A stretch of DNA of 64,000 nt from Tribonema minus (taxonomy: Eukaryota; Sar; Xanthophyceae; Tribonematales; Tribonemataceae): positions 620,001-684,000 of the forward strand of contig JAFCMP010000024.1 in assembly GCA_017506865.1 (NCBI GenBank). Reading direction: 5' to 3'. The translations under genes were made by a program, and so were the position numbers. Of the stretch, positions 1,143-63,378 are shown one piece after another. Numbering within the stretch: position 1 is the first letter of the stretch; each line of letters begins with the position of its first letter. The notes beneath the pieces are model-generated. The model was not told the DNA's origin, did not search any database, and saw only the letters and a list, made by a program, of their open reading frames with translations.

Positions 1143-1560
1143 CGCCCGCACGACTCTCCGGTGGATGACGGCGCGGCGGTCCATGGTGAAGCTCTGGTGC
1201 CGTCGAGCAGCGTCGCTGCTGTTCAAGTTTGCAGTCTTGAAGTACATGCGTACATACCTCCTGCGCGACTCTCTGCTGGATGATGGCGCGGCGCTTCACG
1301 GTGAAGTTCAAGCATCGTTGATTTGAAGTTGGCACTTTTGAAGTATATGTATACATACATACCTCCGGCGCGTCTTTCTGCTGGATGATGGCGAGGCGCA
1401 CCACACGGTGAAGTGGATACCGTCGAGCATCGCTGCTTTGAGGTATACACTCTTGAAGTACATACACACACATATGCATACCTCCTGCGCGACCCTCTGC
1501 TGGATGATGGCGTGGCGCTCCACGGTAGTGGGTACTGTCGAGCATCGCTGCTTTGACGTG
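1143..1560 (-). repeat. Downstream echoes of the PFKFB exon 1745-1596 (about 113 bp unit, four copies)
   Basis: The last codons of the exon (coding AIIQQRVAQE) plus the donor recur with exon-end positions near 1482, 1363, 1258 and 1143; the real end is 1596. Each copy is followed by the same intron stretch with a CTTGAAGTACATACATA-like string (plus strand). Copies differ by substitutions and small indels, so they are decayed and not recent. Confidence 0.85.
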
Positions 1561-1595
1561 CACACTCTCGAAGTACATACATACATAATACACAC

Positions 1596-4500
1596 CTCCT
1601 GCGCGACTCTCTGCTGGATGATGGCGCGGCGCTCCACGGTGAAGTTGGTGCCGTCGAGTATCGCGCACTCGCCGCCGCGGTTGAGGTACTGCAGCATGTC
1701 CTCCACGGCGCGGCTCATCAGCTCCAACCTCAAGTTGACGTTCCCCTGCACGGCGCGCGGGGGGGGGGGGGGGGGGGGGCAGTGCTCGTCAGCGCGCGCC
1801 GCACAGATCTGCTATTTGCGGAGCGCGTTTGCGCGATTTGAAAAACCATATACAGGATCCTTACGACTACTGGTGGCAGAAGAACGATGAGAAGCGCGCA
1901 GAGTAACAGCGCGCTACACCAACCTCAACATACTGACGCCACTCCGCGCGCCATACTTCAATATGCTGACATGCTGACAGCGCTGCGCCACCACCTGACT
2001 GGCGGTCTCGGTTACCACCAACATTGTGAATGTGGCGAGCGGCCGCCTCCTTGGCGGTGTCAGGACATCAGCTCTCAGGCATGCACGCGCGCAGCATGAC
2101 GACGCAGCTGTGACGCAAATTAACGACCGCTCCACAGTTTGATCGCCAATGACTTCTACGCGCCGGAGCGCGCGCAACGCGGGAGCATCACCTGGTTGGT
2201 GTTGTTGGAGAGGTCGGCGGACTGGCAAGCATAACACTAGAGTACACTACTGTATCTTGCACATTTGTAAGGAATGAGGAGCTGAGGAGCTGCAGGAGCG
2301 TTATCTGGTTGGCGTTGTCGAAGAAGTTGGCGGACTGACGCGCGCCGCATCGCTCAATGTTGCCGGTGCGCTGCCGCCGCCGCTCGTGGCCTCCGTATCA
2401 TCACGCGTAGGGCGCCACATGACAATGCAGCTATGACGCCGACAAACCACCACTCCGGAACTCAACATCAACAGCTTCGCAAGAGCGCGCGCTGCGCGGG
2501 AGCATCACCTGGTTGGTGTTGTCGAAGACATCGGTGGACTCTCGAAAACTTCTCTACAGTACACCATCATAAGGTGAATACGTTTCTAAACACGAGGAGC
2601 TGTAGGAGTGTCACCTGGTTGGTGTTGTCAAAGAAGTCGGCGGAGTGGCGCGCGCCGCAGCGCTCGACGCGGTAGCGCGCTGCCGCCGCCACCTTCACAT
2701 TATCACGCGTAGGAGGGCGCTTCAGCGCTACACAACAACGCAGCTATGACGCAGACGAGCCGCTCCACAGTTTGACCAATGACTTCCAGGCGCAAGAGCA
2801 GACGACGCGGCGTGCTGCACGGGAGCGTCATCTGGTTGGTGTTGTCAAAGAAGTCCGCAGACTGGCGCGCGCCGCAGCACTCCACATCGATGCGCCGCCG
2901 CCGTCGCTTGCGGCTTCCGCATCATCACGCATAAGCATAAAGTGCTATATGCCAACGCAGCTATGATGCGAATCACCGCTCCAGACTATCGACATCAACT
3001 GCAAGAGCAGGCGCTGCGTGGGAGCATCACCTGGTTGGTGTTGTCAAAGAAGTCGGCGGACTGGCGCGCGCCGCAGCGCTCGATGCGGTAGCGCGCGAGG
3101 CTGTACGCGCGCGTGCGGTAGTTGATCCAGCGCAGGTAGCGCGCGACCTTGCGCGCAATGTACGTCTTGCCGCGCCCCGGCAGGCCCACCTGAGGGGGCG
3201 CGCGCGCGCACACAGCAGCGCTCAGGGCATGGCAATATACGGCAATATACAAGGCATGCATACACTCCAAAGTACATGTACAGAGAGATGTATACGTGTA
3301 TGGCAAGGTAGCGCGCGACCTTGCGCGCGAGGTACGTCTTGCCGCGCCCCGGCAGGCCGACCTGAGGGGAGGGGGGGGGTGGAGAGCAGCGCTCAGCCCA
3401 CCCACGGCAACTGAGAGTATATGTACGCATGCACGTCGAAAGATATATATATATATATATATGTGTGTATGGCAAGGTAGTGCGCGTGACCTTGCACCTT
3501 GCGTGTGTACCTAACCCTAACCCTAGCCCTGACCACGCCCCGGCAGCCCGGACTGAGGGGGGCATGCGGGCGGCTGTGCAACAGCAGTCGTGCTCAGTGG
3601 CAGCGGGGCGGCCGCGGAATGCTGAATACTGGGCCGCAGCAGCAGCAGCAGCGGTGCGTGGTAGCGGGCAGCAGCAGCAGCAACAGCGCTCAGGCTCGCC
3701 TTGTTGCGCCATGGCAGCACGAGCTGACGGAGGGGGGGGGTGCAGGCAGCAGCGCTGACTGAGCGATGATGCGCGGTGCCTGCATACATACATACCACGG
3801 GTGCGCTCGGGGCCGCGCGCCGCACGCGTGGGAATGCGCATGGGCCGGTAGCACAGCAGTACTGTGCTCACAGAAGGGCGCATTTCTCTGCCGACGCCGC
3901 CGCGCTGCCTCTTCGTTGTAGTCGTTGCGTTGTGGGCAACGTCTCCTGGCCGTTCCCTATGACGATTGCTGCGCGGTATCCACCATGATGCCTGGTAGAG
4001 TAGCCATGCAACAGGGATCGCTGGCCATGTGCGGCGCAGTGGTCACGTCAACCCTGATTCTAACCTAAACCTGACCCTAACCCTAACCGCACCGTCTGCT
4101 GTACCACGGGCGTGAAACGCCCCCTGCCTTCGTGCCCTCGAGTGCTGTCCATGCTGCTGACCCTGATCACAACCCTGACCCTCTCCAGTGCTCAATTCTC
4201 CGACGACAGCCGCGGTGCCGTGCGCAGACGCTCACGGTGTGATGCACCGACCGTGCGCCGCCGGCGCCGCTCTCCCGCTTCATTGCTCAACTCTCGACGA
4301 CGGTCGCGGAGTTGCGCGCAGACGCGGCAGTCGCCTCGAGCGCTGTCAATGCTGCTAGCCCTAACCCTGACCTAACTAACCCTGACCATTTTCAGTTCTC
4401 AACTATCAAACGACAGAGTCGCAGAGCCCCACTCGCAGACGCTCACCATGACGATGACGAGCTTCCCGCCTTTGCTGTGCCCCTTGTGCAGCAGGTCCGT

Positions 4501-5279: not shown

Positions 5280-5309
5280 CTGTGGTGGTGGACGCGCGCT
5301 GCACGTGTG

Positions 5310-5362
5310 TCAAGTCCGCATCTGCCTCACTCTCGCTCGCGCTGTGGTACCTGCGCCGCATA

Positions 5363-5423
<61 letters not shown>

Positions 5424-5538
5424 CCAGCAAGTTGAGGTGGTGCGCGGCGGCGGCGGCGGTGGCGCGCATAGTCGAAGTTCAGTGTCACGTCTGTGTCCGC
5501 TTCGCTCTCGCTCGCGCTGTGGTTTCTGCGGCACGCGG

Positions 5539-5583
<45 letters not shown>

Positions 5584-7365: not shown

Positions 7366-10300
7366 ATGCCCGACGATGAGGATGCATCAGCTGCTGCCGA
7401 CGTGAGTGTCGACGTGCGCGATCTGGTAGAGGCAAGAGGCAGTTGGGACCTTTCGACCAAACCGCAACATGGTGTCAAGTATATAGCTTTGTAGTGCTTC
7501 CAAGATTCGGTCTGTGTGATACATTTCCTGTTTTCAGGCTCGCTACTACAATGTGTGTTTGCGGCTCGATCTAGCCTAGGACCGAACATTGTTGTCGTGC
7601 TGACATCATCCGTGTGTGCAATGATCTTGATGCAGCTTGGCCATTCTCGTCGTGCACTGCTCGCTGCAGCGAGCAAGCGAGCGAATAGTCGAAGTCGTGA
7701 GCGATGCATGAGCTCCATGATTTCCACAGGACATTCACGATCTAGACGGACAGGAGTGCATGCAATACAGGCTCTGATTGACGCATCCCGCCACATCATG
7801 CGGGATGCACCGCTCTTTATGCGGCCACCCCCTGCTACACACAACCCCCAGGCAGCGGCGGCGCAGGAGCTGCTGGCGGGACCGCGCGTCAGGCAGAGGA
7901 CCAACTTCCTGGAGCCGGAGGCGCCGGTGAAGGAGACCCTGCTGCTGCACGGGAAGGGGGAGAGGCTGGGGCACATTGAGAACGTGAGCGCCGCGATAGA
8001 CGCGCGCAAGCGCGACGACGACGTGCTCAAGAAGCTGCACACGATCGCCTTCGGGCGCGCGGGCAAGGCGACCGAGGTGCGCGCACGCATCTACGACTGG
8101 CTGGCATGTTCCGTAGCAGCAGCTTTTGTGATTGCAACTACGTGTTGAGGCGGGCGTGACACGGTGCAAGCACGATGACGGCAACGCGCTCAAGAAGCTG
8201 CACCCCATCGCTTTTGGGCGTGCTGGCAAGGCGACCGAGGTGCGCGCGCATGCATCTTTTCAACTGGCTAGCGTACGTTGAAGTGTTCTGTAGCAGCAGC
8301 TTTTGTGAATGCAAGCAGTACGTACGGAGGCGGGCGTCACACGGTGTGACGCTGCAAATCGGCGCGTGCAAGCACGACAACGACGGGCTCAAGAAGCTGC
8401 ACACGATTGCGTTCGGGCGCGCGGGCAAGGCGACCGAGGTGCGCGCACGCGCTTGAACGACCAGTGGTATTGTACACAGTCAACCTGGTGCCGGCCGCAG
8501 CAGCAGCGCGAGAATGCAAGTGCTGCGCTGAGGAGTGCGTGACACCGTGCAATGTCGTGAACGAGTGCGCGCAAGCACGGCGCCGGCGGTGGCGGCGGCG
8601 GCAGCGGCGACAGCGGCAGCGGCAGCGGCAGCGCGCTCATGAGGCTGCACGCCGCAAGCCTTGTTGGGTCGATGTAGCTGAAGCGCGCTTTTACCTGCAA
8701 GTTGCTTCCACAGTACATGTCTTGGTCTCTCTGCCTTACCCGTACGTCAAGGTGAACCTCGAGCGGTCCAGCGGACTTGTGCAACACGCGTTTCATACGA
8801 GTGAACGGCGGCCCTGTTGAAGCCGAGCACATGGCTGGGCGCTGCTACATTGCCGCCGCCGCGTGCCGCACCAGATGAAGTCGAGCCTCAAGCTGTTCAG
8901 CGCAGTCGCGCACTGTGTGTCTCACACAGTATGAATGATAGCCTTATCAACAATGAGCTGAGTGCTGCTGCGGTGCCACCGCCGCGTGCCCGCGCAGGTG
9001 AAGACGAACCTCAAGCTGTTCAGCGCAGTCGCGCACTGTGTGTCTCACACAATATGAATGAGGGCCTTATCAACAATGAGCATGTGGCTGAGTGCTGCTG
9101 CGGTGCCATCGCCGCGTGCCCGCGCAGGTGAAGGCGAACCTCAAGCTGTTCAGCGGACTCGCATACTGTGTGTCTTATGCAATATTAACGCTGGCCTCAC
9201 TAACAATGAGCATGTGGCTGAGCGCTGCTGCTTTGCCGCCGCCGCGCGCCGCGAAGGTGAAGGCGAACCTCAAGCGCCACAGCGGACTCATGCACCGCGT
9301 GTCTCATGCAACATGGACGATGGCGTTGTCACCGCGCGGCTGAGCTCTGCTGCATTGCTGCTGCGCGCCCGCGCAGGTGAAGGCGAACCTCAAGCAGTTC
9401 AGCGGGCTCGTGTACACGGGCGACGCGGCGAAGGAGCGCGAGCGCTACACTGCGCGCATCGGCAAGTGGATGCTGTCCACACTCAAGGACTGCATGGTGA
9501 GTGCGCATATGTTACAATGTATTAAGGTATGTTTACGCGTTGCGTATGCTCGTGTACACCGTGTCTGTACCTAAGTTCAACCTGACACGTTGTGCATGTA
9601 CTCAAACGTGTACACATGTGCATATGTTACATATGTGGCCATGCGGCGCGCCTTCGCAAGTGAATGCTGTCCACGCTCAAGGACTGCATGGTAAGTTGCA
9701 CATATATTCATAATGTTTTGAAGTATTTACACGCTGCATTCTTGTGCGATATGCGATTTTCGCCCTCGCACCGACCTACAGTCTACTGCAATCTCGCCCA
9801 AGCAAGCGGGCAGAGGAGGCACCCGAGACTGACGCCTTGCGTGCTCGTGTACACCCATGCGTGTACATGTGAGCATATTCAATGCTGTCCACACTTAAGG
9901 ACTGCATGGCGAGTGCACATAAAGGGTATATTGAGGTATACCCGATGCGTGTGCTTGTGTAAATCGTGTCTGCACCATAGTTGGTACACATTTGTAGTAG
10001 GCGGACTGGCGTGGTATGCGTGTACACATGGTATGCTCACATCTGTGTATGTAGTGTGTGTACATGGGTACTCATGTGCGCTCACTGCATTGTATGTGAT
10101 ATGTTGCGTGAAGTAATATACGCCCCCCCCCCCCCCCTCCCCTACAGGCGCACGGCATAGACACGTTCTGGAAGTCACCGCCCTACCTCTACGCGCGTTT
10201 AGGGCTAGGGTTAGGGTTAGGGTTAGGGCATACACTCATGTGTGTACGCGTGCGTGCCCCCATATACACACGTTCAGGGTTAGCGTTAGGGTAAGCACTA

Positions 10301-12612
10301 ATGTATGTACCCATGCACCCCTGACGTGTGTGAACGCATGCCCCCCTGCCCCCCAGGACCTCCTTGACATACCGCGCGGCATACACGCCTTCCCGGAGCT
10401 GGACGGCAAGTCGCCACCCAAGGAGAAGCTCGTGGAGCGTCTCGTGGAGTGGCTCGAAAACCCCCAGCCCAGCGGCAAGAAGCGCAAGGCGCCGAAGGCC
10501 GCAAAGAAGGGGGCGAAGAAGAAGGCAGCGGGGGGGGGGAAGCCTGGCAAGAAGGCTGGGGCGAAGGGGGACAAGAGAAAGGCCGCGGTGGTGCCGACGG
10601 GGGGGGACAGTACGGAGGAGGAGGAGGGGGGTGAAGAGGAGGAGGAAGAGGGGGAGGAGGGGGGTCAAGAAACGGTCAGTGACTGTGTGCATTTGCATAT
10701 GGGCTAGAATGCGCCTGATAGAGGGGCTGTGATGCTTCTTGTTGTTGTCGCACGTGAGGTATACCGCTCACAGAAATGTACAAGTATCAAGTGGATGGGG
10801 GTAAAGAGGAGGAGGGGGAGGAGCAGTAGGGGGTGAAGGAACGGTAAGAGATTGTCTGCATCTGCAGATATTTTAGGAATGCGCCTGATAGAGGGGCTAT
10901 CGTGCTTCTTGTTGTTGCACTTGTGGCATGCAGCTTGCCAGAAAATGTACAAATATTGAGTGGATCATATCATGTTTGTTGTGGAACGGCGTGCATCTCA
11001 CCGCTCTGGAGCGGGAAGCGCAGGAGGGCGGTGACGGTAAGTGATCGCGCCAAACTGTCAGAAGGGTCGGGAGCAGAAAGACATGGCAAGTGGTCATGTG
11101 CATACGCTCACAAGACTCCGTGACGCTTTTTGTCATTGCAGTTGCAGTTCCCAGCATGCAAGCACCAGGAGTAGTCATGCTTTCAGTGCGTAACAGCACC
11201 CGCCTTTGGAAAGCCACTAGTACTTTCTGGTGTTGTAGATCAACAATGATGACATCGATTGAACTTCAACTTCAAGTCGCTCCTCTGCGCAGTATGACGC
11301 AGAACTGCCCCCCCTTGAAGGCTTCGGCCACCACTGCTGAGCCACTGCGCACCTTTCCTTCCTTTCACGTCCAGGACGAGGAAGAGCCACCGGAGCCGCC
11401 AGCAAGAAAGGCCGCGCCCGCAAAAAAACAGCCTCCCCCCGCAAAGAAACAACCCGCGCCAGCAGCAGCAGCACCAGCAGCAGCAGCGCCAAAAAAGAGC
11501 GGCGGCGGCAGCAGCGGCAGCGGCGGCAGCGGCGGCGGCGGCAGCAGCGGCGGCGGCAGCAGCAACGGCAAGGGTGGTGATGCTCCGAAAGCGGAGCCCA
11601 CGCCCGAGGAGCTGAAGGCGAAGGTGGAAGAGATGCTCGCCGAGGGGGGGCTGGAGATGGACAGCATCACCTTCAAGCAGTTTGCCGCGCAGGTTCGTGC
11701 ATACCTGCATACCCCTGCTTTTGTGGAAACGATTTAATAAGATCATAGAACTCCAAGTAGGTGACAGGGTGTGGCTGGCCGTCAGTGCCTTCTACCGATG
11801 ACCGTGGTCGCCGCTGCTGCAGCAGTTGCTATCATGGCCGCAGGCTTGAGACTGCGTTATCATACGCGTCGACCGGTGCAAGCAGTTCGCCGCGCAGGTG
11901 CGTACCTGCATACCCCTGCTTTTGTGAGGGCGGTGATGCTGCAGACACACACCAGCGATGCGTCCTCTCGACGAACTGCTCGCTGCGTGATCAGCCGAGC
12001 CGCAGCATGCTAGGGCGGGGCCTGCCGTACCAGTCATTTATTTAGGTTGAGGTACATTTCAGATCCATCTCCCATACAAATGCCCACTTTCAGTTTCCCT
12101 ACGCGTCTTAGGGTTAACGTGGCACAACGCACTCGACGGTGGTGATGCTGTGAAGGGGGCTGGCCTGAGGGGCTCTGGTGACACGGTGGTCAGGGGCGCG
12201 TAGCACGGTCTGGCTGAGTGCACGCAGTCGCCAACCACCGTCATCGCCAATGATTGGCGCACGTTTGGGGTCAGGGCTAGGGTTAGGCAGCGCGAAATGA
12301 GTGCTGACGTGTTCAGTAGCGGGTCAACGGACACACGTGTGTGATTTGGACATCAGGATGGCCACAGCGATCTTGGCTGTGTATCCTCTCGGCGGTTGAA
12401 TCGGAGCAAACACTCAAGCGCTCATTCTCATTACTCCGCTGTATTCTCCCTGCGTTTGAATCGCAATGAGCCATGAAGCGCTCACCATTCCGCAACAGGT
12501 CGCGTCTCAATGCGCGCATCATCGCTGCTGGTGTCTGCCGCAGGTGGAGCAGGCATTCGGCGGCGTGTCCCTGGTGCACCGCAGGGCAGAGCTCAAGGCG
12601 ATGCTGGTGTGA
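7366..12612 (+). CDS. DEK: DEK-domain chromatin protein
   Basis: A DNA- and histone-binding nuclear protein of the DEK family. Exons: 7366-7401, 7852-8076, 9377-9496, 10357-10674, 11375-11692, 12544-12612, all joined in phase 0, giving 361 aa. Exon 2 has GKGERLGHIENV and LKKLHTIAFGRAGKATE, running into VKANLKQFSGLVY, the hallmark DEK core. The SAP-like helix pair follows (LKDCM joined to DLLDIPRG, then KEKLVERLVEWLENP). Next come a Lys/Ala-rich basic tract, a Glu-rich acidic tract, a Gly/Ser linker, and the DEK C-terminal domain (TPEELKAKVEEMLAEGGLEM..., ending EQAFGGVSLVHRRAELKAML). Start: the first ATG, reading MPDDEDASAAAD up to GTGAGT. A small open block at 10148-10196 is a possible extra exon but breaks the phase and the SAP alignment, so I left it out. 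Confidence 0.93.
8160..8460 (+). repeat. Downstream echoes of DEK exon 2 (two copies)
   Basis: The exon end coding LKKLHTIAFGRAGKATE plus its donor recurs ending near 8241 and 8440 (real end 8076). The copies read LKKLHPIAFGRAGKATE and LKKLHTIAFGRAGKATE, so protein-level identity is very high. Both keep GAG then GTGCGCGC. The intron stretch TTCYGTAGCAGCAGCTTTTGTG is copied too. Confidence 0.9.
8740..9376 (+). repeat. Upstream echoes of DEK exon 3 (five copies, about 125 bp period)
   Basis: The exon start GTGAAGGCGAACCTCAAGC and its acceptor recur with starts near 8752, 8875, 8998, 9128 and 9257 (real start 9377). Spacings are 123, 123, 130, 129 and 120 bp. Most copies keep GCCGCGYGCC followed by a CAG or AAG acceptor. 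They also share ATATGAATG-type sequence and AACAATGAG farther along. The array is regular enough to look like a small satellite made from an exon border. Confidence 0.92.
9655..9945 (+). repeat. Downstream echoes of DEK exon 3 (two copies)
   Basis: The exon end ATGCTGTCCACRCTCAAGG plus ACTGCATGG and the donor recurs at about 9664-9692 and 9881-9909 (real end 9496), each followed by the related string TGCACATA. Together with the preceding array, exon 3 has 5'-edge copies only upstream and 3'-edge copies only downstream. Confidence 0.88.
10199..10228 (+). repeat. Interstitial telomere-like repeat, about five units of TTAGGG type
   Basis: TTTAGGGCTAGGG is followed by perfect TTAGGG units, inside a DEK intron. 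A further GTTAGCGTTAGGGTAAG relic lies near 10277-10292. Confidence 0.85.
10790..11100 (+). repeat. Downstream echo of DEK exon 4 with its intron flank
   Basis: The block 10793-10920 repeats 10617-10748: GGGTGAAGAGGAGGAGG-like acidic codons, ACGGT donor, then the long intron match AATGCGCCTGATAGAGGGGC and the string CTTCTTGTTGTT. A weaker third relic with a donor lies near 11020-11045. Here the copied unit is mostly intron. Confidence 0.82.
11735..11832. repeat. Dispersed repeat, copy 1 (DEK intron)
   Basis: About 95 bp running from AATAAGATCATAGAACTCC to GACCGTGGTCGCCGCTGCTG plus CAG. It matches 15962-16060 in another gene at roughly 80 percent by eye; the AAGACCGTAGAGCTC part is seen again at 17106-17120. 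Family unknown; it may be a short non-autonomous element. Confidence 0.6.
11868..11945 (+). repeat. Downstream echo of DEK exon 5
   Basis: GCAAGCAGTTYGCCGCGCAGGT plus GTACCTGCATACCCCTGCTTTTGTG copies the exon end (coding KQFAAQ), the donor and the first 35 intron bases, which lie at 11680-11725. Confidence 0.88.
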
Positions 12613-14424: not shown

Positions 14425-17400
14425 ATGCCAGACACCATCGTCGAGCCCGTCACGGGCATCGCGCTCGCGGCGACCGCCAGCTTCGGCGGCAGCGCTCAGC
14501 TGCGCTGCGTCGGCGCCGGCGCGCGCGTCAAGAGCGTCGCGCTCGCCAGCGTCAAGGTCTACGCGCTCGCGCTGTACGTGGAGCCCGGCGGCGCGGCGCG
14601 CGCGCTGGCGCGGTACGAGGGCGTCGCGCCCGCGGAGCGCGCGCGGGACGTGGGCTTTTACGAGGAGCTCATGAAGGTGTGACCTAGTTCTAACCCTAAC
14701 CCTAACCCTGACCCTACTCCTACCCCTAACCCCATCCCTGACCCTGACCCGAGCCCTAGCTTTCACCGTCGCAGTGGCCTGCGGGCTGCGGGATGCGGGA
14801 TTCTGTGACGCGCTCATGAGAGTCGGCCTGACCCAAACTTCAATTCTACTGAGTTGAGACCTTACTTGAACGCTGGCCAAGTCTGCGGGCGTCGCGCCCG
14901 CGGAGCGCGCCAAGGACGCGGGCTTCTACGAGGAGCTCATGAAGGCGTGACCTAAGTAGTTATAACCCTAACCCTAACCCTAACCCTGGCCCTGACTAGA
15001 GCCCCAGCTGTGACCGCTAGCAGTACCCTGCAGGCTGCGGGGCGCGGGCTTTTGTGACGCGCTCATGTAGGTCGGCGTGACCCAACATTTCAAGTCTACT
15101 CAGTTGAACCCCGCCCTACGCAAACCCTAAGTGGCGCTGGCGGACCGTGCCAAGGACGCGGGCTGGTACGAGGAGCTCATGCAGGTTGGTTTAACTACAG
15201 CCCTAGCCGCAGGCTGAACCCTAATCCGGTGCCGAATGTTAACCCTAACTCTAGCCCAACCCCTGATTTGCGCCTGCGGAGCACGCCAAGGACGCGGGTT
15301 TCTACGAGGCGCTCATGAAGGTGTGACCTAACCCTCACCCCGACCCTAACCCTAACCCTAATCCTAGCGCCATCCCTAAACCTAACCCTAATCCTGACCC
15401 TGACACTGACCCTCAGCCGAGTCCTAACTTTCAAAACAGTCTGCAGGGCCTGCGGACTGGGGGCCGCGGGTGAGGCTAGCCTGATGCAAAGTTCAACTCT
15501 ACTCGGTTGAAATTTGGCTTGAACACACACGATTCGTGCCGATGGCTTGCGCCGAGGGCACGCGTCTCTGTGACGAGCTCATGACGGTCGGTCGGTACTA
15601 ACCCTGCGCCTGACCTCGACTCTCACCCTGAGTTGAAACATGAGCCTAGCCCTGCGTTGCGCCAGCGGATCACTCCAGGGACGCGAGTTGCTGTTACGCG
15701 CTCAGTAGAGGCGGTGCTGTTGCTTGCTCGACGGCGTGCGTCGAGGCGTGGCGGTCACTGTGCGAACACACTAGTGTCGTAATCTCTTGAGCTTCATGAA
15801 CTTCAAGTGCATGTATATGACGCGTGGCGTCCAACCTGGTTCTACTAGCAGATCAACTTGCAGACGCCATTTTTGTGACGCGCAAGTGCAAGCACTGGCG
15901 TCTTATGGTTGTAGTTGGGGTTAGGTACGACGCTCAAGTCATCACAATGCTTCATGAAAAACGAATTAAAGGATCGTAGAGCTCTAGGTGACAAGGGATG
16001 GTTAGCCGCCTTCCACCAATGACCGTGGTCGCCGCTGCTGCAGTCATTGGCCACGAGTCGAACAGTGCCACCATCATCACAGTAGGCGAAAGACTTCGGT
16101 GTGCAAGCGTTTTAGCGTTCGAGGAATGCGTGTACATAGTGGTTGTACGGCCCTGAACGGGCACCCACTTGAACCTGCCCGGCACAATGCATGCAATACC
16201 GCTGTGCACTTTCCATCTCAGACGGTGGCAGTCCTGAGCTGCCTGGTCATGTCATTCGCGCACGACGTGGGGCACGCCTCTGAGTAGGTTAACGCACTAT
16301 ACGGTAGGTATGAATATAAAACCTGACGTGTGCATAGTCCAAGCTGACCTGAGCAGTACAAGTACGTGACATATGCAATACCGCCTCGCGTGCGCATAGT
16401 CCAAACTGACCTGAGCAATACAGGTACTTGACACATGCAATACCGCGTCGCTCTTTCCGTCGCAGCCGGCGGTGTTCCCGCGCTGCCAGTTCATGTCGTT
16501 TGCGAGCGACTTGGGGCTCGCCCGAAGTCGCTCAATTACTAGAGATATGTAACCTTGAAGCTGACGTATAGACAATGTTCTTCAACCTGACGTGCACAGC
16601 ATTTGCGACACCGCGTACTTTCTCCTCTGCAGCCGGCGGCATTCCCGAGCTACCTGGTCATGTCGTTCGCGCGCAACGTGGGCACGCCCAAGGTGGTGGA
16701 GGCGCTGACTTCGGCCGTTCAGGTGATTCACATCCCCCCCCCATGCCCATAAACGCTCCTCCCCAAATTTGATATGCTGCGTTACAACAGGCGACCCGCT
16801 GTTGCACTAATACTGTCGTGATAAATTCTATTGATAGATAACATGCGCCATGTGGTGATGCCCAGGGTGGTGGAGGCCTCAACTTCGGCGGTTCAGGTGA
16901 CTCACACGCCCCCAAAACACCATACAACCACCCCTCCCCAGATTTGATCTGCTGCGTTACAACAGGCGGCCCGCCGTCGCACCGAATGCTTTCGTGACGA
17001 ATGCTCTTCACAGATCAACACGCGCTGACTGCGGCCGTCGAGGTGGTGCGCAGTTTCACCCACGTCGCCCAGGACTTGATTGCACTCCATGTACGCAAAC
17101 GAATCAAAAGACCGTAGAGCTCATTGATACCTCTGTTGCATAGCGAACACTCAAGCTTCAAATGGGCATGTCCGTGCCGGGTCGTGCAGTCTCCCCCGCA
17201 AGCGCACCGCACTGCATGAAGCTGTCGACGTGGCCATGGCGCCTCAGAAGGACAGCAGCAACTGCAAATGCACACTCCGGGAGGCAGTGCGCTGACGTGA
17301 AAAGAAAAAAAACCGTCTGGTGGCGGTTCATCGCAGCCAGACTCCAATGCTAACGGAGGAACTCTAATGCGCGCTTCAACTTCAAGCAGAAAGAAGTCAC

Positions 17401-20400
17401 ACGCCTGATGCGTGCTGCGGTGGCATGGCACCTCGAAGGAGGAGGCTGCCCTGCTAAGTGTGCACAAGCTTTTCAGCGGTTAAGCCAGGGTCACCGCAGT
17501 ACCCTCGGCTATACACTGCGCGCCGCTGGCTGTCTGCGGCCAGGAACATGTCTAGGCGTGCTGTACGCCTCACCCCAACCCCAACCCTATCTGCGGACGC
17601 GCCCAAGTCCGCAGAGACAAGCCACACGCATGCCAGCACACATGTTCTGAGCGGTGCATACGTTTAAGTGCACCGCGCATCATGTACGCCGGCATGCGTC
17701 GGGTATGGCTACTGTTACGGCTTGGGTGTGTGCACCTTAGTTGAGAGGGTGATATGCCATCAGAGAGTCCTGGTACCAGGACTCCATGTTGTCTTTAGGT
17801 GGTTGTATACAACATCATCACATTTGTAGTTCTAACCCTAGGGCCTATATGCCAGAGATTGAGAGCATTACACTTGCCTTCCTGGAAATTGCTGGAGCAA
17901 GACCGAGGGAAGCCCCCCACTGAAAGCATTGGAATGTGCAGCACCTCATAGCCCATCGCGTGAGCTTGCCGTTGCGATCTTGCAACGTCAATGGCCACCT
18001 CACTGCCGCTGCATCTGTCACCGCTGTGGCGGGGGTTAACTTACCCTAGCTATGAAGGTCAACTACACTATAACAGGTCATCCCTAACTTGTCTCAGATG
18101 GTGTGCGTCTGGCACATGCCCGCAGGGTGACCCCAGCTTTGAAGGACAACTACACTCAAACAGGTCATCCCTGACTTGTCTCAGTTGTGCGCGTGTGGCA
18201 CATGCCCGCGCGCACACTGCGCGTACACGCTACTCACCAGCGCCTGTGCCTCTGCGCGAATGTTCACTGCCTGCCAGTTAGCCGCCCCCCCCCCCCCCCC
18301 CCCGTGACCCGACGGTCCCGTCTACTGAGCATGCGTGGCAATGACATCACGGACGCTGAGTATGATGAACATGGTCATTACATCGGCGATGGAGACTTCT
18401 ACACAACCCCCTCCCAGCAAGGTCAACGGGAATTATCAAGAGTATCTTCACTGAGCTTACGCTTTCAGGGACTTCATGCGAGCCCGGCTGTTGGCGCGCC
18501 GCGGCAGCGATCGCCATCACCGCATTTGGCTGCGAATCGGATGTTGTGTGCGCCCAGGTGTTGTCGATACAACGCATCTCGGTAACGCATCTCGGTACCT
18601 GCACCGAGATGCGTTGCATCGACAATACCTGTACCAAGATGCGTTGTATGGACAACACCTGGGCGCACGGTTGCTTGTGTCGTGCCCATCCTCGCCGGCG
18701 AACTCTATGCTCCTGCTCCTCCTCGGTATGTAGGTAGAGAATGCAGTTGAGCACTGCTGCACGCCAGCGCTTAGAGCGTTTTGGAGCCAGCCGGCAGCGC
18801 GCCGACCACTTGTCAAAGGGCCGAAAGCTGGGCTCTCATGAAGTGCCGGAAAGCGTCAGCTCGGTGCAGATGCTTGTAATGACGTCGCTGACCTTGCTAG
18901 GGTCTGCGTAGAAGACTCCATTGCCGATGTAGTGACCGTGTTTATCATAGTAGTCGGCGTCCGTGACGTTATTGCCACACAAGCTCGGCAGACGGAATCG
19001 CCGGGTCACGGGGGGGGGGGGGGGGGTGACTGGCAGCGGCGACTCGCGCGAAGCCGCAGACGATGGTGACCAGAGTACACACGATATGCGCAGCAACAGA
19101 GACAATTAGGGATGACCTGTGCCAGTGTAGACGTCCTCACAGCTAAGGATGGCTACTTGCGCGGCGGCGGCGGCGGCAGCGACGGTGGTCGCCCGCACCT
19201 TCGCCGCTGCGCATGCGGAGGGGAGCGATGACCATCTTTCGTACAAGTCGCGAGCGTCGCGCTACCCTTCAGACCATTCCGACCGTTTCAGCGGGAATCT
19301 GCTGCCCGGTTGCTGGCTCAGCTGCCGCTGCTGCCGCTGGCTCTGCTGCCGCTGCAAGTTCTGCTGGCGCTGCTGGCGCTGCTGCCGCCGGTTCCGCTGC
19401 TGCTGCTGGCTCTGCTGCGGTTGCTGCTGACGCTGCTGCTGCTGCTGCTGCTGCTGCTGCCGCTAGTTCCGCCACTAGCGCTGCTGCTGCTGCTACCCGT
19501 CTCCTGCGCCGTCCCCTGCGCTAAGTGCACCAGGCGTTTGACGCCATTGAATGCCGTTCGAAGCGCGTTCTCATTGCCCTTTGAACGCCACCTTGCGGAT
19601 ATCTCCGCGCCATCGCCACACGTCGACTGCAGCGTCGGCGGTAGCCGTGTTCGCCATCCGCTCTGTGCGCCGCCTTGTTGTTCTCACCGATCCCACTTCA
19701 CACTTTATCACCCGCCACCGCGTTGATGTTTCGTACCACTAGGGTTAGCAGTGAGGTCAGAGGTGGAGGCAGGGGTGAGCTTAGGATTAGGGCTGGGCAC
19801 TGCCACGGGTCAAATTGTACGAGCACAGACTCCCACAGCTGATACCACACCATACACACTTTGTAAGCCTAAACATTATCCCACAAAAGTTAATCATGCA
19901 CCAAATTCCTAAAGATGGTAGCCAACAAAGACTAGCCCCACAAGGAAATAGAAGACAGTGGCGTTCACATTTCTTGCAGGGCGTTGCGCAGGATGTCCTC
20001 AAGAGCTTTGCCGGCCTGCTGAGCGCTGCGACACGGCCCTCCGTGCGCAAGCCATGAGTCACTTTGTGCGAGGGCAGACCTCACAGCTGATACGGCACAC
20101 CATACACGCCCTGTGATGTGTAAATTTCCATGCAGGGCGTCGCGCCGGATGTTCTCAAGAACTTTGCCGGCATGCTGGGCGCTGCAATGGGGCCCTCCAT
20201 GCGCAAGGGGGATGTCGTCGCCATGGGGTGGGAGGGGGAGGGCAGGCTGGCCGTGGTGGTGAGGGGTGTGAGGGTGGGGGAGGTGGCCGACGCGGTGCTC
20301 CCGGGAGCCATCTTCAAGGTGAACTTTGACACTTCAACTGTGCACTTTTTAGCAGTGAGGGTGAGGGAGGTGACCATCTTCAAGGTGAAATTTAACACTT

Positions 20401-21505
20401 CCAACTGTGCAGTTTCAGTGGTGAGGGTGGGGAGGTGACCGATGCGGGGCCATCTTCAAGGTGAAGTTCAACACTTCAACTAGCAGTTGCAGCGAGTAGT
20501 GGCAAATGTCGAGGAGTTGACGACACGCGGCCACATGCAAGGTACCGAAGGGCAGTGTGTTGTGTGTGCTCTGAATGCGTGTGCTTACAGGCACTTGAAA
20601 AACATACTTTAGTACACTCCTTATGTTGTGCGCGCGGGGTGAGGGTGGGGGAGGTGACCCACGCGGTCCTTCCAGGGGCCACATTCAAGGTAAGCATCAT
20701 CCGACGGCCCCAGTTCGCGCTGTGTATGAAGGAGGTGATGGTGCATGGCTACCTGCAAGGTATCATAGATGTCACGTGTGTGCATTGTACGTGTGAATGT
20801 GTGTGTGCGCTGTTTACAGGCACTCACAAGCGTACAATTCTTATTACGGGCATACAATCATACATGTGTGCTTGTGCTGTTTGCGCACTTCAATTTTTGC
20901 CGTGTTAAAGGCTCTCTACGTGAATACATGCGTGCAGACTTCGGTCACAGGCAGGCACGACAACCTCACGAGCACGCTGATTGACAGCCTACAGAAAGTT
21001 TTAGACGCTGTTGGTCCGCTCGCAGTTGCAGCGCGCGAAGTGGTGTTGCCAAGCAGCACGGCTGCTTGAGACTCCGCATGCTGTCGATCCACGTCGCAGC
21101 TCGCGCAGTGCTGCCGCCAAGCAGCACGCTTTCTCTGAAACTATGATGACTCATTGGATGACTCACGCTGCAGCTGCACGCGGGCCACAAGCACGCACAA
21201 CATGCTTGCAGGTGACTTGAGCTGATTGACAGCTCTGGCATTCTGCACGCCGCTGTTCGCGCTGTAGCGCTGTTCGCACTGTAGCGCCACCCAAGCACCG
21301 CGAAGCCTCTACAGCACTCTCGACTCACGGCGCCGCTGCCTCTGCACGTGCTCTCTCTTACTGCGCAGCTTAAGACTTGTGACTCATCGTGCTGCTGCCT
21401 CTGCATGTGCTGTCTCTTACTGTGCAGCTCTACCTGGGTAGCGACCCCGTGTCGCCGCCGGCCAAGGCGGCTTTCGCGAGCGGCGTCTCGGCGATCTACT
21501 GCTGA
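14425..21505 (+). CDS. Chalcone-isomerase-fold protein (CHI-like/FAP-like)
   Basis: Exons 14425-14676, 16633-16722, 20136-20318 and 21428-21505 join in phase 0 to about 200 aa, the usual size of the CHI domain. Exon 1 has the first beta strands (SVALASVKVYALALYVEPGG). Exon 2 reads LVMSFARNVGTPKVVEAL, matching the family's LxFxRdV segment. Exon 3 has VLKNFAGMLG, RKGDVVAMGW and LAVVVRGVRVGEVADAVL. Exon 4 ends with YLGSDPVSPPAKAAF, the family's C-terminal signature. True enzymes, non-catalytic CHI-like proteins and fatty-acid-binding FAPs share this fold; I cannot assign catalysis from sequence. No plastid targeting signal was evident. A short extra exon between exons 2 and 3 is possible. The start is the first ATG before the conserved block (ACCATG context). 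Introns are 1.9, 3.4 and 1.1 kb and full of repeats. Confidence 0.87.
14677..15725 (+). repeat. Downstream echo array of CHI-fold exon 1 with CCCTAA filler (about eight copies)
   Basis: The exon end (coding RARDVGFYEELMK) plus donor recurs with ends near 14818, 14946, 15068, 15184, 15323, a very weak one near 15475, 15587 and 15713 (real end 14676). Spacing is about 112-152 bp. Good copies keep GAGCTCATGAAGG. Weaker ones read GCGCTCATGAG or TAG. Alternate units carry CCCTAA/CCCTGA runs and a CAAAGTTCAACTCTACTCGG-type string. Confidence 0.92.
14690..15420 (+). repeat. Interstitial telomere-like CCCTAA arrays inside the echo units
   Basis: Runs of CCCTAA with CCCTGA and CCTACC variants lie at about 14690-14757, 14966-14996 and 15338-15418. 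Each begins 10-25 bp after an echo donor, so they are part of the repeated unit and not independent insertions. Confidence 0.8.
15962..16060. repeat. Dispersed repeat, copy 2 (CHI-fold intron 1)
   Basis: Matches the copy at 11735-11832 (GATCGTAGAGCTC, then GGTGACA, then CCAATGACCGTGGTCGCCG). The flanks are unrelated, which supports dispersal and not tandem growth. Confidence 0.6.
16185..16545 (+). repeat. Upstream echoes of CHI-fold exon 2 (two copies)
   Basis: The acceptor with its tract and the exon start recur with exon starts near 16213 and 16453 (real start 16633). The copies read VLSCLVMSFAHDVG and VFPRCQFMSFASDLG against the real FPSYLVMSFARNVG. The intron part CATGCAATACCGC before each acceptor is copied as well, and an intronic unit with CATAGTCCAARCTGACCTGA lies at about 16335-16440. 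Confidence 0.9.
16845..17045 (+). repeat. Downstream echoes of CHI-fold exon 2
   Basis: GGTGGTGGAGGCSTCAACTTCGG plus GTTCAGGTGA at 16868-16900 copies the exon end and donor. The following CCCCAAATTTGAT/CCAGATTTGATCTGCTGCG flank is copied too (16760-16790 against 16935-16975). A weaker third relic with GCTGACTGCGGCCGTCGAGG lies at 17024-17044. Confidence 0.85.
18047..18215 (+). repeat. Two-copy tandem repeat, about 80 bp
   Basis: The segments at about 18047-18126 and 18130-18213 share CAACTACACT, AACAGGTCATCCCTRACTTG and TCTCAG, and both end GGCACATGCCCGC. Both contain TTGTCTCAG acceptor-like ends. They lie in CHI-fold intron 2. Confidence 0.75.
18276..19034. repeat. Large inverted repeat with nested palindrome in CHI-fold intron 2
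   Basis: The left arm (about 18276-18490, plus) and right arm (about 19034-18832, minus) match at roughly 80 percent. Both start at CTGCCAGT followed by a run of at least 16 C, then GTGACCCG, and both end near ACTTCATGAGAGC/ACTTCATGCGAGC. Between them, 18549-18667 is a second imperfect palindrome opened by TGCGCCCAGGTGTTGT, containing a perfect 13-base hairpin at 18584-18596/18603-18615. This looks like a terminal-inverted-repeat element or a head-to-head duplication; no transposase was seen. Confidence 0.75.
18836..19105 (-). CDS. Unassigned open frame in the right arm of the inverted repeat
   Basis: A short open frame reads CGNNVTDADYYDKHGHYIG and then NGVFYADPSKVSDV. The left arm (plus, about 18330-18420) encodes the diverged version RGNDITDAEYDEHGHYIG. 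Matching protein between the two arms suggests the unit once carried, or still carries, an exon. CCTAGCAAG followed by GTCAGC could be a donor. No family was recognised. It may be chance, since it is short and sits in a repeat. Confidence 0.25.
   Translation of the reverse strand: MSLLLRISCVLWSPSSAASRESPLPVTPPPPPVTRRFRLPSLCGNNVTDADYYDKHGHYIGNGVFYADPSKVSDVITSICTELTLSGTS
19290..19500. repeat. CTG/GCC-rich microsatellite-like stretch
   Basis: A run of CTGCTG, CTGCCG and GCTGGC triplets that is open in several frames (Leu, Ala or Cys rich). The frames are typical of a GC-rich trinucleotide tract, and no exon is supported. Confidence 0.6.
19810..20060 (+). repeat. Upstream echo of CHI-fold exon 3
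   Basis: At 19972-20055 the acceptor TTGCAG and the exon start are copied. The copy reads GVAQDVLKSFAGLLSAATRPS against the real GVAPDVLKNFAGMLGAAMGPS. The intron part CTCACAGCTGATACSRCACACC is copied before the real acceptor (20080-20105) and again near 19835-19860. Confidence 0.88.
20330..20765 (+). repeat. Downstream echoes of CHI-fold exon 3 (three to four copies)
   Basis: The exon end coding GVRVGEV...IFK plus donor recurs ending near 20386, 20462, 20690 and, weakly, 20758 (real end 20318). The copy at 20637-20690 keeps GVRVGEVTHAVLPGATFK. Several copies are followed by GTGAAATTTAACACTTCC-like intron sequence. Confidence 0.88.
21290..21427 (+). repeat. Upstream echoes of CHI-fold exon 4 acceptor
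   Basis: CTGCCTCTGCAYGTGCT followed by CTCTTACTGYGCAGCT occurs at 21332-21370 and again at the real acceptor (21390-21429). An earlier relic (GACTCACGGCGCCGCTGCC) lies just before. Confidence 0.8.
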
Positions 21506-24310: not shown

Positions 24311-24311
24311 G

Positions 24312-59491: not shown

Positions 59492-59536
59492 CTGATCGGC
59501 GGAAGGCGGCAGGGGAGGGGGGGAGGGGGGGGGCAT

Positions 59537-60626
59537 TCAGCAGCCAGCGCGCGGCAGCGGCGCATGTCGGGGGTGTGCATGCGGTGGAGGTGCTGAATGC
59601 TGGCGTGCGTGCGCGATCGTCGTGCTGGCGGCGGCGGCCGCAACGCTGCCATCTGCGTCGGCGGTCGTCACGCCAGCGCCCTTGTGAGCGCTGCTGTTGC
59701 TGCACGATTCGGCGCCTGCGGGAGCGCTCTCGTGGCGGCGCCGCGAGCCTCGCAGCGGCTCGCGGCCGACGAGGTCAGCATGCGCGCGTTGCACGGCTGC
59801 GCTGCAAATCGCCGCAGCGCGTGTGATTGCCGCACGCACGTACGGCGCAGGCAGTCACGCAGGCGCGTCGGCAGCAGCTTATGGTAGGGGCGCGCAGAAG
59901 CGCTTTATGTGATGCGGACCGAGGCCCTGATCAGCATGCGGCGCAGGCGCCCGGCGCGTGCCGGTGGGTGCTGCGTTACGGGCAGCGCTGCTGCCGCCAC
60001 GCCGTGCATCTCACCATCAGCGACTCTAGGATAGAATTGCGGCGGGGGGAAGGCGGCCGGCGCGCCGCAGCATAGCAGCGCACGCCGCGCTGCTGCAGGG
60101 CGCTCAAGCAAGGGATGCTGCGGATGGCAGCGGCGGCAACGCATGCTCGGCGACGAAACTATTGCACCGCAAAGGATGCGCTTGCGACTCAGATGGTGTC
60201 CGTCGCTGTAGGTCTCCCGCGCGTGTAGCGATGAGGAAAACGGCATCAGCTTGACGGAATGGCGACCAGTGCGTCTGACACCTGGCCCGCTGCTCTGGGT
60301 GGTTGCGCTGCTGCTTTGGAGTTGGGCTCAGAAATAGGGCTATGGCTAGAGTTAGGCCACGTGAGCAATGCTCATGCGTGCCCCGTCAGCTCAAGACAAG
60401 ATACGCGCAGATAGCATGAGGGCGCTGTCGCTTTGACTGGCAGCTTAAGGCGTGTGCCATGACATTCTGCCACGAAAGCATCTGCAATGGCAATCAACTG
60501 CCTGCAGCTGCCACGGCCCGTGATCGCCACCGTGCCGACAGAGAGGCCTGCCCGCGGCTCAGACTTGAAGTTGTGTACATTCCTTGCACTTCAACTTGAA
60601 GTTCAACTTGAATTGTACATGCTCAC
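59537..60626. other. Unassigned stretch between CEP19-like and TBCC genes
   Basis: Should contain the CEP19 5' end and the last exon of the TBCC gene. No exon could be placed with confidence. A CTTCAACTTGAAGTTCAACT string lies at 60588-60607. Confidence 0.35.
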
Positions 60627-63378
60627 CTCGGCGTCGTCATCCAGCGGCAGCCACGCTGGCACCTGCTGACGCAGGGGGGAATCAAAGCAGTGTTCAGGTG
60701 GACGTGAGCTCACCGGTGACGTGCCATGGTGCTTGAAGTTGAGATGAGCTGACAGCAGTGACCGAGACGTGCCAGCGTGCTTGAGGTTGAAGTGAGCTGA
60801 CAGCAGGAGCTGCGGAGTCGTCAAGTTGAGTGCATCCGGTAGGAGACAGTTGGAGGCTCTGGCGCATGGTCAGAGGCGAATTCAGCCACGCAACAGCGAA
60901 GCGCATTCGCGGCAGATGACATTTGCAGGGACAGCGGAGAGCCTGTGCCAGCAACCGCCGGGCTCGGTGGCGCGGGTGCAATTGTGTCTGCGCGCTGTGA
61001 GTGCTGGTCGCGTGGTGCAAGTGCTTCAAATAATGGCATCAGTTCTCTCTGCTCGCTTTGTTGGGGCAAAGGCGGGCGCACAGCAGGCGTGGCGCATGCG
61101 CTGCGAGGCGCTCCGGCTAGGCTTGCGCCGCTTTGCAAGGTGGAAAACGGTTGAGATGCGCACGCCGCTTGTGGTCGCTTCCGGAGTACCGCTGGTAGTT
61201 GTAAGTTTGTGGCCCACCGGCAAGCGGACGATTTTACGCTGCGACACAGGCGCGCATGGCGTGGTGCCTGTCCGCCGCGGAGGCGAGCGCTCGCCCAAAC
61301 TTCAACCCACGGCTGCTGCTACTTCAACAAGCATACTGGTGTTACGCTCACCATCTGCATAGACCGGCGTTGTAGCCCGGGCACACTCCATGCGATGCCG
61401 GTACCGGTACTGTACAGACACAAAGCTGCAGTCGCAACCCCACTGCTGCTACTTTAAGGAAGTACCGGTTTCACGTACACCACTTGCATAGACCGGTCTT
61501 GCAGCCGGCGCCTACACCAGTACCACCGGCATTACGCAGGCCACAAGGCCGCAGCCGCGATGGTGGCGCTGAGCACTGCTGATCATACATACCTACATAC
61601 CCACCTCCGACTCGCCGACCAGCGACCAGTTCTTGCCGGTCTTCGCCTCGTCGTTGAAGTCGAAGATCGCGTACCAGACGCTCGGGGTCATGAGGTTGGA
61701 TGCCTGCAGGTGGCTCGCATGGTCTGCGTACGCGCCGTTGAAGGGCCCAAACTTCATGCCGCTGCTGGTCTCTATGATCGGCTGCACGTGCAAGAGGCAC
61801 AGCAGCGGGGCGGGTTGCGGGGGGGGTGGGGGGGTTTGGGGGTGGTGACGGGAGGGGAGTACACTGGTGAGTTCACGCGTGCACTGGCAACAGGCAATTG
61901 TGCCGTTTGTGCACTGCAGGTTTGACACCAGCAGTAGCAGCGGCAGCAGTGGCGGCAGGCAGCACAAATGCTGTGCGCTACCGATGCTGTCTGGCCAATG
62001 CCTTGAAGGCGGCCGACGCAATTGATAGTGCTCAACAGTTGCACCATTGGACATATACGGCATTCATTGCGCGCTCCTGGTGTGCTGCTGCTGCTGGTCC
62101 AAGAAAAAAAGCTGGCAAGCAGACGAGCTCAGGCTGGCATAGGTGTGTGACGCATCGCAGCGCGGTGCGTGGCGATAGCGCCGCGCATCAACGCTGCACA
62201 TGCTGCACTTCTGCACTTTAGCATCTTCTAGAGGCTCTCTGCGTGTGGCACCCACTCACAGTTACGGCAAAAAAGGATAGGCGTTCAATATGTACCGGGC
62301 AGATTGCCTTGTGATGGCCCGAACGACAAGCCGGTTACGACCACACGGCACTGTGCAGCGTTGCGTTGACGACCACGCTCGACCAGTTAGCACGCAAACA
62401 CTGCACCGCAGCACAGATCATCCTCTGCTTTGCCTGCGCCATGCCCGCCAGCCCTCACGCCCTTGGCCACTCACCGCGTCATGCGCAGTAATAAGATCGT
62501 GATCGTCCACATTTGGGTACGTTTGCCTGCCCCCCCCCCCCTGAGTGACCCACCTCAGTCTTGCTGTACAGGCTGAAGAGGCAGTTCTGGCAGTCCCGCG
62601 TCCTCAGCTGCAGCAGCCAAGCGACACAGAGACCGCACAGCCTGAGTCAGGGTGCACATGCCTCTGTGCTGAGCGCTTTATCAGCGCAGCGGCGGTTGTG
62701 TTGCACAAGCAGTGCCAAGCACGGCACTGTCGTCGGTGACATGTCTACCAATGAGGTAAGTGACAGTCGCGCGCCTGAGTGCTCTCATGGACGACAACAT
62801 GGCAGACATCTGCATTGAGTTGTCGCTGCCAATCTCCAGCGTGAGGAGACACGGCATGGCACGCGAAGCTGCTGGCAACCCATGTCGGTGCTCACAACAG
62901 GTATGCAGAGGAGCACCAGCTTAGTTCAGGTACATGCGTAATTTTTGTTGACTCACGCCGTGCACCGCACGCTCAGATCCCAGGCAATCAACGGATGCAA
63001 TTTGAAATATTGCTGCTGCTCTAAGGTCTGCTTAAGCTGTAGGCGCCTTGGATCGCACTGAAGAGCACGCACCTGCTTGCAGGCAGCGTAAAACGTGCAA
63101 CCCGAGCAGTTCCTGACGAACAGGGATTCCGCACAAGCAGCCACAAACACCCTGCAGTCCACCAGGTTGTCGCACTGCACCATGTCACTGGCATCCAGCA
63201 GCTGCACCTCGCACCGGCTCAGGTCACTGAGGTCGAAGGGCTGCCCCTGCACTGCACCAGGCAGTTTGATCAGAGTCTGGTCGACGGCATTTCTGAAGGT
63301 ATACTGAGTCTCGAACTCATGCTTGCGCCAGGCTTTTCTGTCCGTGAAGACTGTACCGTCGGTAGCCGTGAACACCAT
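60627..63378 (-). CDS. TBCC/C-CAP domain protein (RP2-like)
   Basis: TBCC-domain proteins include tubulin cofactor C and the ciliary ARL3 GAP RP2. Exons on minus: 63378-63073, 62607-62554, 61781-61605, 60662-60627, all phase 0; 191 aa so far. Exon 1: MVFTATDGTVFTDRKAWRKH, then repeated beta-helix turns (CEVQLLDASDMVQCDNLVDC, RVFVAACAESLFVRNCSGCT). Exon 2 is the 18-residue turn LRTRDCQNCLFSLYSKTE. Exon 3: PIIETSSGMKFGPFNGAY, then WYAIFDFNDEAKTGKNWSLV. Exon 4: VPAWLPLDDDAE. The usual RP2/TBCC catalytic Arg lies in a QxRxxxC context; here exon 1 ends in KQ and exon 2 opens LRTRDC, so the motif spans the junction. The final exon was not found. With CEP19 next door it fits a flagellar or tubulin role, though adjacency may be chance. 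Confidence 0.88.
60695..60825 (-). repeat. Upstream echoes of TBCC exon 4
   Basis: Two units of about 58 bp share GTGCCAKSGTGCTTGARGTTG and GAGCTGACAGCAG. On the minus strand they copy the acceptor side of the exon (CAG, then GTGCCAGCGTGG, real start 60662). Confidence 0.75.
61310..61560. repeat. Two-copy tandem repeat, about 125 bp, after TBCC exon 3
   Basis: GCTGCTGCTACTTCAACAAG...GCATAGACCGGCGTTGTAGCC at about 61310-61378 recurs at about 61441-61506. Flanking GCCGGTACCGGTACT/CACCAGTACCACCGGC pieces match less well. Confidence 0.75.

Follow-up and report, generated by a model that had tools for sequence, protein, structure and literature searches.

The 64,000-nucleotide stretch analyzed here, called the window below, covers positions 620001-684000 of contig C24 in the genome of the xanthophyte Tribonema minus, which was searched as a whole (158 Mb in 554 contigs). 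The window harbors several unrelated protein-coding genes, and in some of them the introns contain repeated copies of the edge of the neighboring exon, joined to its splice site and to part of the intron. Such copies are called echoes here, and a series of them at one exon border an array. Pfam supports the identity of PFKFB (6PF2K), ATG4 (Peptidase_C54), the CHORD gene and TBCC, and recognizes an FPL domain in the gene that the original prediction called CLEC16A. The pieces submitted for DEK and for a CHI-like gene have no Pfam match, and both names come from that prediction only. Exon models were obtained with a small gene finder, self-trained on the window, on twenty 10-kb pieces of other contigs chosen by coordinate alone and on four PFKFB loci; it over-calls short exons and merges neighboring genes. 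Its learned donor signal is AG/GTG[AC]G and its acceptor signal TGCAG/, the stroke marking the border. The exons and arrays of the window are the following.

1134..1664, minus strand: PFKFB donor array, a 69-nt exon edge plus the intron start, with four echoes at +114, +233, +338 and +453; its master copy is the last 69 nt of the exon at 1596..1752
1596..1752, minus strand: PFKFB exon ending in ...RVAQE before GTGTGT, placed by Pfam 6PF2K and by the donor as read; the start at 1752 is approximate
2099..3096, minus strand: PFKFB donor array with five echoes at +199, +416, +522, +726 and +839 and two kinds of intron part
3031..3189, minus strand: PFKFB exon ending in ...FFDNTNQ before GTGATG (Pfam 6PF2K 19-71)
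3134..3495, minus strand: acceptor array of the PFKFB exon 3031-3189, with 56 nt of exon
4136..4446, minus strand: PFKFB array starting directly behind the upstream exon, on the first base of the intron (donor 4447)
8001..8450, plus strand: DEK donor array, donor 8076, echoes at +163 and +362
8746..9415, plus strand: DEK acceptor array, acceptor 9377, five upstream echoes spaced 120-130
9452..9982, plus strand: DEK donor array, donor 9496, echoes at +194 and +412
10623..10965, plus strand: DEK donor array of period 170, donor 10674 or 10684
11674..11926, plus strand: DEK donor echo, donor 11692, at +205
14603..15470, plus strand: CHI-like donor array, predicted donor 14676
16168..17025, plus strand: repeat arrays in the same predicted gene as CHI-like, at predicted exon 16633-16722
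20265..20691, plus strand: array at predicted exon 20136-20318
28049..29057, minus strand: ATG4 (Peptidase_C54) donor array, the edge ...CLDPHTTQ before GTGCGC found again at +193, +494, +724 and +924
29095..29773, minus strand: ATG4 acceptor-side repeats, predicted acceptor near 29162
34146..34443, plus strand: weak, marginal CHORD donor echo, predicted donor 34191

When the PFKFB exons that flank the intron with five echoes are joined by hand, residues 1-102 of the product match 6PF2K 19-121 without a gap. In a gene-by-gene test of the window, a border was flagged if its score exceeded 60 controls and the reverse strand by at least 4. PFKFB, DEK, the CHI-like region and ATG4 together have 20 of 42 borders flagged, 18 of them with scores of 40-110 against control maxima of 22-32. 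Donors and acceptors taken together, the flagged borders amount to 6/10 in PFKFB, 5/12 in DEK, 2/8 in ATG4 and 7/12 in the CHI-like gene and the region that follows it; some of them, such as 2744 and 2615, belong to echoes mistaken for exons by the gene finder. CHORD (2/6; scores 31 and 31 against controls of 25 and 23) and CLEC16A (2/16; 32 and 36 against 27 and 29) are marginal. The long open reading frame at 37-47 kb has 1 of 19 borders flagged, and TBCC none of 11. Therefore, of the genes in which echoes had been announced, PFKFB, DEK, the CHI-like gene and ATG4 carry them clearly and CHORD and CLEC16A marginally, while TBCC drops out. Other features of the window lie beside these genes. 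A direct match in the CHORD gene (35126-35413 and 36660-36948, 1534 bp apart) overlaps two predicted exons and is probably an internal protein repeat, not an echo. ARAGORN places a tRNA-His (anticodon atg) at 50303-50395, over predicted CLEC16A exons, which is probably spurious. Telomere-like TTAGGG/CCCTAA runs occur at 10199-10228, 14690-14758, 14963-14987 and 53223-53258.

Local duplication on the same strand is common in this DNA. Self-comparison of the window at distances of up to 4 kb gives 73 direct and 7 inverted matches, and no direct match is found in any of three dinucleotide-shuffled versions of it. Among the local matches in the twenty 10-kb pieces, which were drawn without regard to content, 122 are direct and 18 inverted, with at least one direct match in 15 of the 20, so that short-range same-strand duplication is widespread and not peculiar to the window. 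Three contiguous duplications are nearly exact (331 bp at 99.7% identity, about 291 bp at 99.3% and 92 bp at 98.9%, with gaps of 0, -2 and 0 at junctions judged by eye from the sequence), and duplication has therefore been recent. Assembly artefact is an unlikely source of the copies, because most of them are inexact. Two further observations concern sequence composition. Two CAG runs (window 5363-5429 and 5542-5591) are enclosed by a longer tandem duplication with a period of 175. The octamer AACTTCAA/TTGAAGTT is about 20-fold over-represented (129 occurrences against 5.6 expected on both strands of the window, L002-L021 and L028-L031); strong exons seldom contain its core ACTTCAA/TTGAAGT (7 in 44 kb), which is denser in duplicated non-coding DNA (60 in 29.5 kb) than in the remaining non-coding DNA (194 in 213 kb). 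As a breakpoint signal it was discarded, since there is no clear peak at repeat ends, and no such role is claimed.

Exon edges resemble their own introns more than chance allows. This comparison used strong borders, defined by a coding score above 25 and an exon of at least 90 nt, next to introns not shorter than 150 nt; windows in which more than 30% of the letters were masked were excluded, and a match meant that the last 60 nt of the exon beat every control segment by at least 6. Eleven of 57 donor edges match their own downstream intron, against 0/57 on the reverse strand, 0/54 when the intron at the exon's opposite end is used and 0/51 for mid-exon windows. Acceptor edges match their own intron in 4 of 69 cases. 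Local matches of windows lying entirely in the intron are found for 10/57 of the first 100 nt past the donor and 5/70 of the last 100 nt before the acceptor; interior intron windows, 160 drawn at random from a larger number, give 12 (4 of the 160 also on the reverse strand), and intergenic windows 9/124. Duplicates that span the border from -20 to +20 are found at 6/23 donors and 1/27 acceptors in the window, at 8/45 and 4/48 in the twenty pieces, and at 2/10 and 2/10 in the PFKFB loci. With exons masked, duplicate coverage of the donor-side intron is 0.18-0.24 in the first 100 nt, 0.09-0.12 at 300-700 nt and 0.16 at 700-1000 nt; on the acceptor side it is 0.05 in the first 25 nt and 0.09-0.13 deeper. 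In this set of exons the effect is mainly at donors. Both here and in the border-by-border test, matches to the exon's own intron exceed those to other loci, contrary to the outcome that the original prediction had named as refuting it.

A second set of exons was defined by homology. It comprises five PFKFB genes (C24, C540, C115, C79 and C190), the complete set found when the whole genome was searched with Pfam, and two intron-rich kinesin genes (C141 and C516), which were chosen for their many Pfam exon matches before repeats were known there. At least 132 kinesin motor-domain matches are found in the whole genome, which suggests dozens of kinesin genes. Several exon ends of the set were taken from the Pfam match without a clean splice site (some in C24, C190, C115, C141 and C516), which adds noise. 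Twenty-four of the 27 repeat arrays in these seven genes straddle an exon border, and two of the other three start within 2 bases of a donor; uniform placement of the array spans expects 12.8. There is, then, an excess at borders over equal-chance placement. The placement calculations assume uniform placement and rough unit lengths, and a first one, which expected 1.3, takes no account of straddling and was left aside. Of the 31 nt around the border, 25 or more lie in copies at 8 donors and 10 acceptors, out of 22 of each, so both border types take part in this set. The number of arrays per gene varies from none in C190 through one in C115 to seven in C516. An internal border is covered in 15 of 29 exons (0/3 in C190, 4/5 in C516, 2/2 in C79). 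Recognizable local copies account for 7,433 of 24,733 intron bases (30%), from 0 in C190 to 59% in C24, and nearly all of these bases belong to arrays that touch a border. The statement that arrays surround most exons therefore holds in some genes only: 15 of 29 exons is the proportion in the seven-gene set, and for the strong exons of the gene finder the donors stand at 11/57 and the acceptors at 4/69. That echoes occur in unrelated genes and elsewhere in the genome is borne out by the random pieces and by the PFKFB and kinesin genes on other contigs.

Donor arrays begin within the exon and continue into the intron, and acceptor arrays are their mirror image. Their anatomy was followed at 22 borders selected for visible repeats, so the figures on anatomy and divergence characterize the echoes and not their frequency, and pairs of echoes inside one array are not independent. 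Successive spacings range from 58 to 301 bp, and 119 of 132 primary pairs are spaced 60-240 bp without a single peak; the spacing of 105-150 bp, or about double, that had been proposed falls inside a range that is broader than it. Nucleosome length as a rule of spacing was rejected on the same ground, the periods being broad and without a single peak near 147. Periods are distributed 43, 48 and 41 among the three remainders modulo 3. The exon part of the unit measures 13-95 nt and exceeds 80 nt in 1 of 24 arrays of the seven genes, against 9.1 expected; in the gene-finder set 28 of 30 exon overlaps measure 13-77 nt, and the other two (373 and 384 nt), in long exons of L019, were left out of consideration. 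Several arrays have common exon limits (67, 67, 67 and 69 nt in C115; 55, 56 and 56 nt at the C79 acceptor; 69, 69, 51 and 71 nt at PFKFB 1596), as if one unit had been made once and then amplified. Same strand, common period and common ends are found together in the PFKFB 1596, DEK 9377 and C115 arrays; spacing and ends are uneven in those of ATG4 and PFKFB 3031.

The arrays are local, and they differ between paralogs. In genome-wide DNA searches, which skip very common words so that short common motifs would escape, the DEK array matches itself only, the PFKFB C24 and ATG4 arrays each match themselves plus the edge of their own exon, and the C115 array matches, in addition, the paralog C540. 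C540 and C115 have the same five matching exons, and one of their introns carries a donor array in both (2 copies at 120 bp in C540, 5 copies at about 128 bp in C115), with 95% identity in the array-bearing exon edge (L029 1337-1490, L030 1380-1530). C540 has two more arrays, at donor 3380 and acceptor 4296, and C115 has neither.

The interpretation that we prefer, with a probability of about 0.7, is that short tandem duplications straddling exon borders, mostly of 60-240 bp and growing in the manner of minisatellites, lengthen introns that already exist. Expansion of introns by local duplication was one of three origins originally envisaged for the echoes, and it is the one favored by their strict locality and orientation and by the lack of a signature of intron birth. 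In the proposed model, short tandem duplications would occur repeatedly across an exon-intron border, most likely when staggered nicks or breaks with overhangs are repaired by end joining. If the duplicated stretch includes a donor, the exon edge and the intron start would stand twice in tandem. The outermost splice sites would presumably be used, and because splicing between them would leave the protein as before, the extra copy would become intron. The array could then expand and contract like a minisatellite, while purifying selection would hold the exon copy and the intronic copies would decay neutrally; as the exon copy stays constant under selection, the echoes would remain recognizable through their exon part. 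Existing introns would in this way lengthen at both ends.

Intronic minisatellites are variable-number tandem repeats with units of tens to hundreds of bp. The arrays resemble them in unit size, in a copy number that differs between the two paralogs and in the common unit ends of several arrays; unlike them, they open or close with a coding exon edge that brings its splice site along, a layout repeated at many borders. For the initial duplication, the available portions of PMC8355091 describe small tandem duplications that arise when staggered breaks are filled in (Pol alpha-primase, CST), with near-blunt ends and end-joining. The youngest duplications in Tribonema are contiguous like these, and contiguous copies would fit the repair of staggered breaks, although the same portions do not link such duplications to exon borders or arrays.

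The divergence of the copies is in keeping with neutral decay beside a constrained exon. The reading phase could be set at 12 of the 22 borders; there, differences between echoes fall evenly on the three codon positions (90/511, 88/517 and 95/517, or 0.176, 0.170 and 0.184; pN/pS 1.15), and differences between exon and echo show an excess at third positions (45/412, 46/417 and 64/418; pN/pS 0.71). Such a pattern is given when the exon is under constraint and its copies are neutral. At donors, identity between the real border and its echoes over the nearest 30 nt is about 0.89 on the exon side and about 0.75 on the intron side (34 echoes), a divergence ratio of about 2.4 to 1, close to the 2:1 expected if the exon copy alone is constrained. 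Selective conservation of the exon edge within the echoes was considered and set aside: its apparent peak is mostly due to the conserved exon copy and to the detection window, ATG4 being the exception. The intronic copies look like neutral, non-coding debris.

Several observations fit this interpretation poorly. At acceptors the contrast is weak, with identities of 0.83 for exon and 0.78 for intron (30 nt, 16 echoes). The ATG4 echoes retain a core of 35-37 bp that is 91-97% identical between copies, with flanks mostly decayed. More than 30 bp of unmatched sequence lies between the copies in 69% of 253 pairs, non-neighboring copies included, and some short copies, 95-97% identical, are parted by unmatched spacers (L035, 69 bp; L028, 44 bp); simple decay of a contiguous duplication does not explain them. 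The exon limits vary within the ATG4, PFKFB 3031 and DEK arrays, which suggests several duplications, each including the border. One of the three youngest duplications touches a predicted exon, with no clear preference for borders, and an exact 38-bp doublet (window 55548-55624) sits between predicted exons. PFKFB of C190 has no array at all. Finally, the intron part of the array shared by C540 and C115 is 93% identical (52/56), yet 40 of 99 fourfold sites differ between the two genes and the other intron ends tested barely align; gene conversion between the paralogs, or local constraint, may therefore be possible.

If existing introns grow in this way, the excess at borders can be accounted for in two ways. 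The same duplications could arise uniformly along genes, and the excess would then reflect the survival and detectability of copies anchored by a conserved exon that cannot be deleted. We regard this as plausible, although the odds are somewhat against it. It agrees with the local duplicates that interior introns and intergenic windows also carry (12/160 and 9/124), with an acceptor-side intron that, exons masked, is no richer than the interior, with the low count of acceptor edges (4/69) and with the position of young duplications, mostly off predicted borders; furthermore, deletions that cross into an exon would be purged, so that sequence adjacent to borders would be lost more slowly. Detectability was allowed for by giving straddling arrays double weight, as they hold an undecayed exon copy. 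Even so, placement of the original unit expects 13.2 straddling arrays against the 24 of 27 observed (P=1e-5), and placement of array spans 17.0 (P=0.002). With exons masked, 15 of 20 arrays still lie within 25 nt of a border, against 5.3 expected from unit placement at equal detection, and none of 200,000 simulations reached 15; this count left the exon-derived parts of echoes unmasked. The richer first 100 nt of the donor-side intron under the same masking, and the limit of about 80 nt on the exon part, which survival alone does not predict, also speak against it.

Alternatively, exon borders themselves could be hot spots of duplication. A process linked to the border, such as nicking connected with transcription or splicing, an R-loop or a positioned exon nucleosome, would repeatedly copy up to about 80 nt of exon together with tens to more than 100 nt of intron, growing introns from both ends. 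The border excess is observed, and its origin in such hot spots is put forward tentatively, as a possibility well short of even odds.

A functional role of the echoes as alternative exons, or as decoy or backup splice sites under selection, is unlikely. Splice dinucleotides persist in many of them (of 27 donor echoes 19 have kept GT, and four of the five copies in the DEK acceptor array have kept AG), the ATG4 core is highly conserved and the gene finder accepted several echoes as exons. Against this stand the lack of codon-position bias between echoes, with its pN/pS of 1.15, stops in some of them, periods that show no regard for reading frame, and first intron bases that at donors are less conserved than the exon part. 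The suggestion that the arrays are a source of alternative exons is not supported, in view of the same pN/pS and periods and of the partial retention of GT.

It is still less likely that the echoes date from the birth of introns through tandem duplication of an exon segment containing AG/GT, the model of Rogers. Tandem copies are present, and AG/GTG donors and TGCAG acceptors would let such a duplication make an intron. The resemblances that this model predicts are nearly absent: the intron start resembles the downstream exon start in 0/22 introns and the intron end resembles the upstream exon end in 1/22, against border echoes in 10/22 and 8/22 of the same comparison. The copies also include sequence of the existing intron, and C540 and C115 have their introns in common and not all of their arrays. 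On these grounds the possibility of intron-gain relics, raised in the original prediction, is not supported. In its available portions, PMC4974935 describes for a potato RdRp gene a duplicate of the upstream intron-exon structure and an 83-bp intronic tandem duplication that leaves the gene structure unaltered, and it cites introns of fission yeast that extend over several repeats of a 24-bp piece of exon. As far as those portions go, intron gain by AG/GT duplication and the potato case share with the arrays a local tandem duplication and splice sites that derive from the duplicated segment; they differ in that here the introns pre-exist, the unit spans an existing border, the copies are numerous and no birth signature is seen.

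Insertion of dispersed mobile elements, or introners, next to exons has next to no likelihood: many introns do hold repeated sequence, but the four searched arrays are private to their own gene or its paralog, which excludes introner-type dispersal for them at the search sensitivity used, and matches are confined to the strand of the adjoining exon. In what is available of PMC7789003, the introners of Amoebophrya are dispersed families with inverted repeats and with short direct repeats at their boundaries, similar to the arrays as intron-linked repeated sequence in a protist and unlike them in that the four arrays stay within one gene or paralog. Border-anchored echo arrays around many exons are not named among the literature matches listed, which consist of titles and abstract openings and leave most subscription journals outside. 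On the portions available, the potato RdRp and fission yeast cases (PMC4974935) and the Amoebophrya introners (PMC7789003) are the nearest known.

For gene annotation the arrays are a warning, as echoes retain open frames and splice sites and several of them were taken for exons by the gene finder. They also make the growth of introns in Tribonema traceable unit by unit, each copy being easier to date by comparison with the exon, which changes little. Should the excess at borders go back to the birth of the duplications, splicing or exon chromatin would be connected with DNA breakage.

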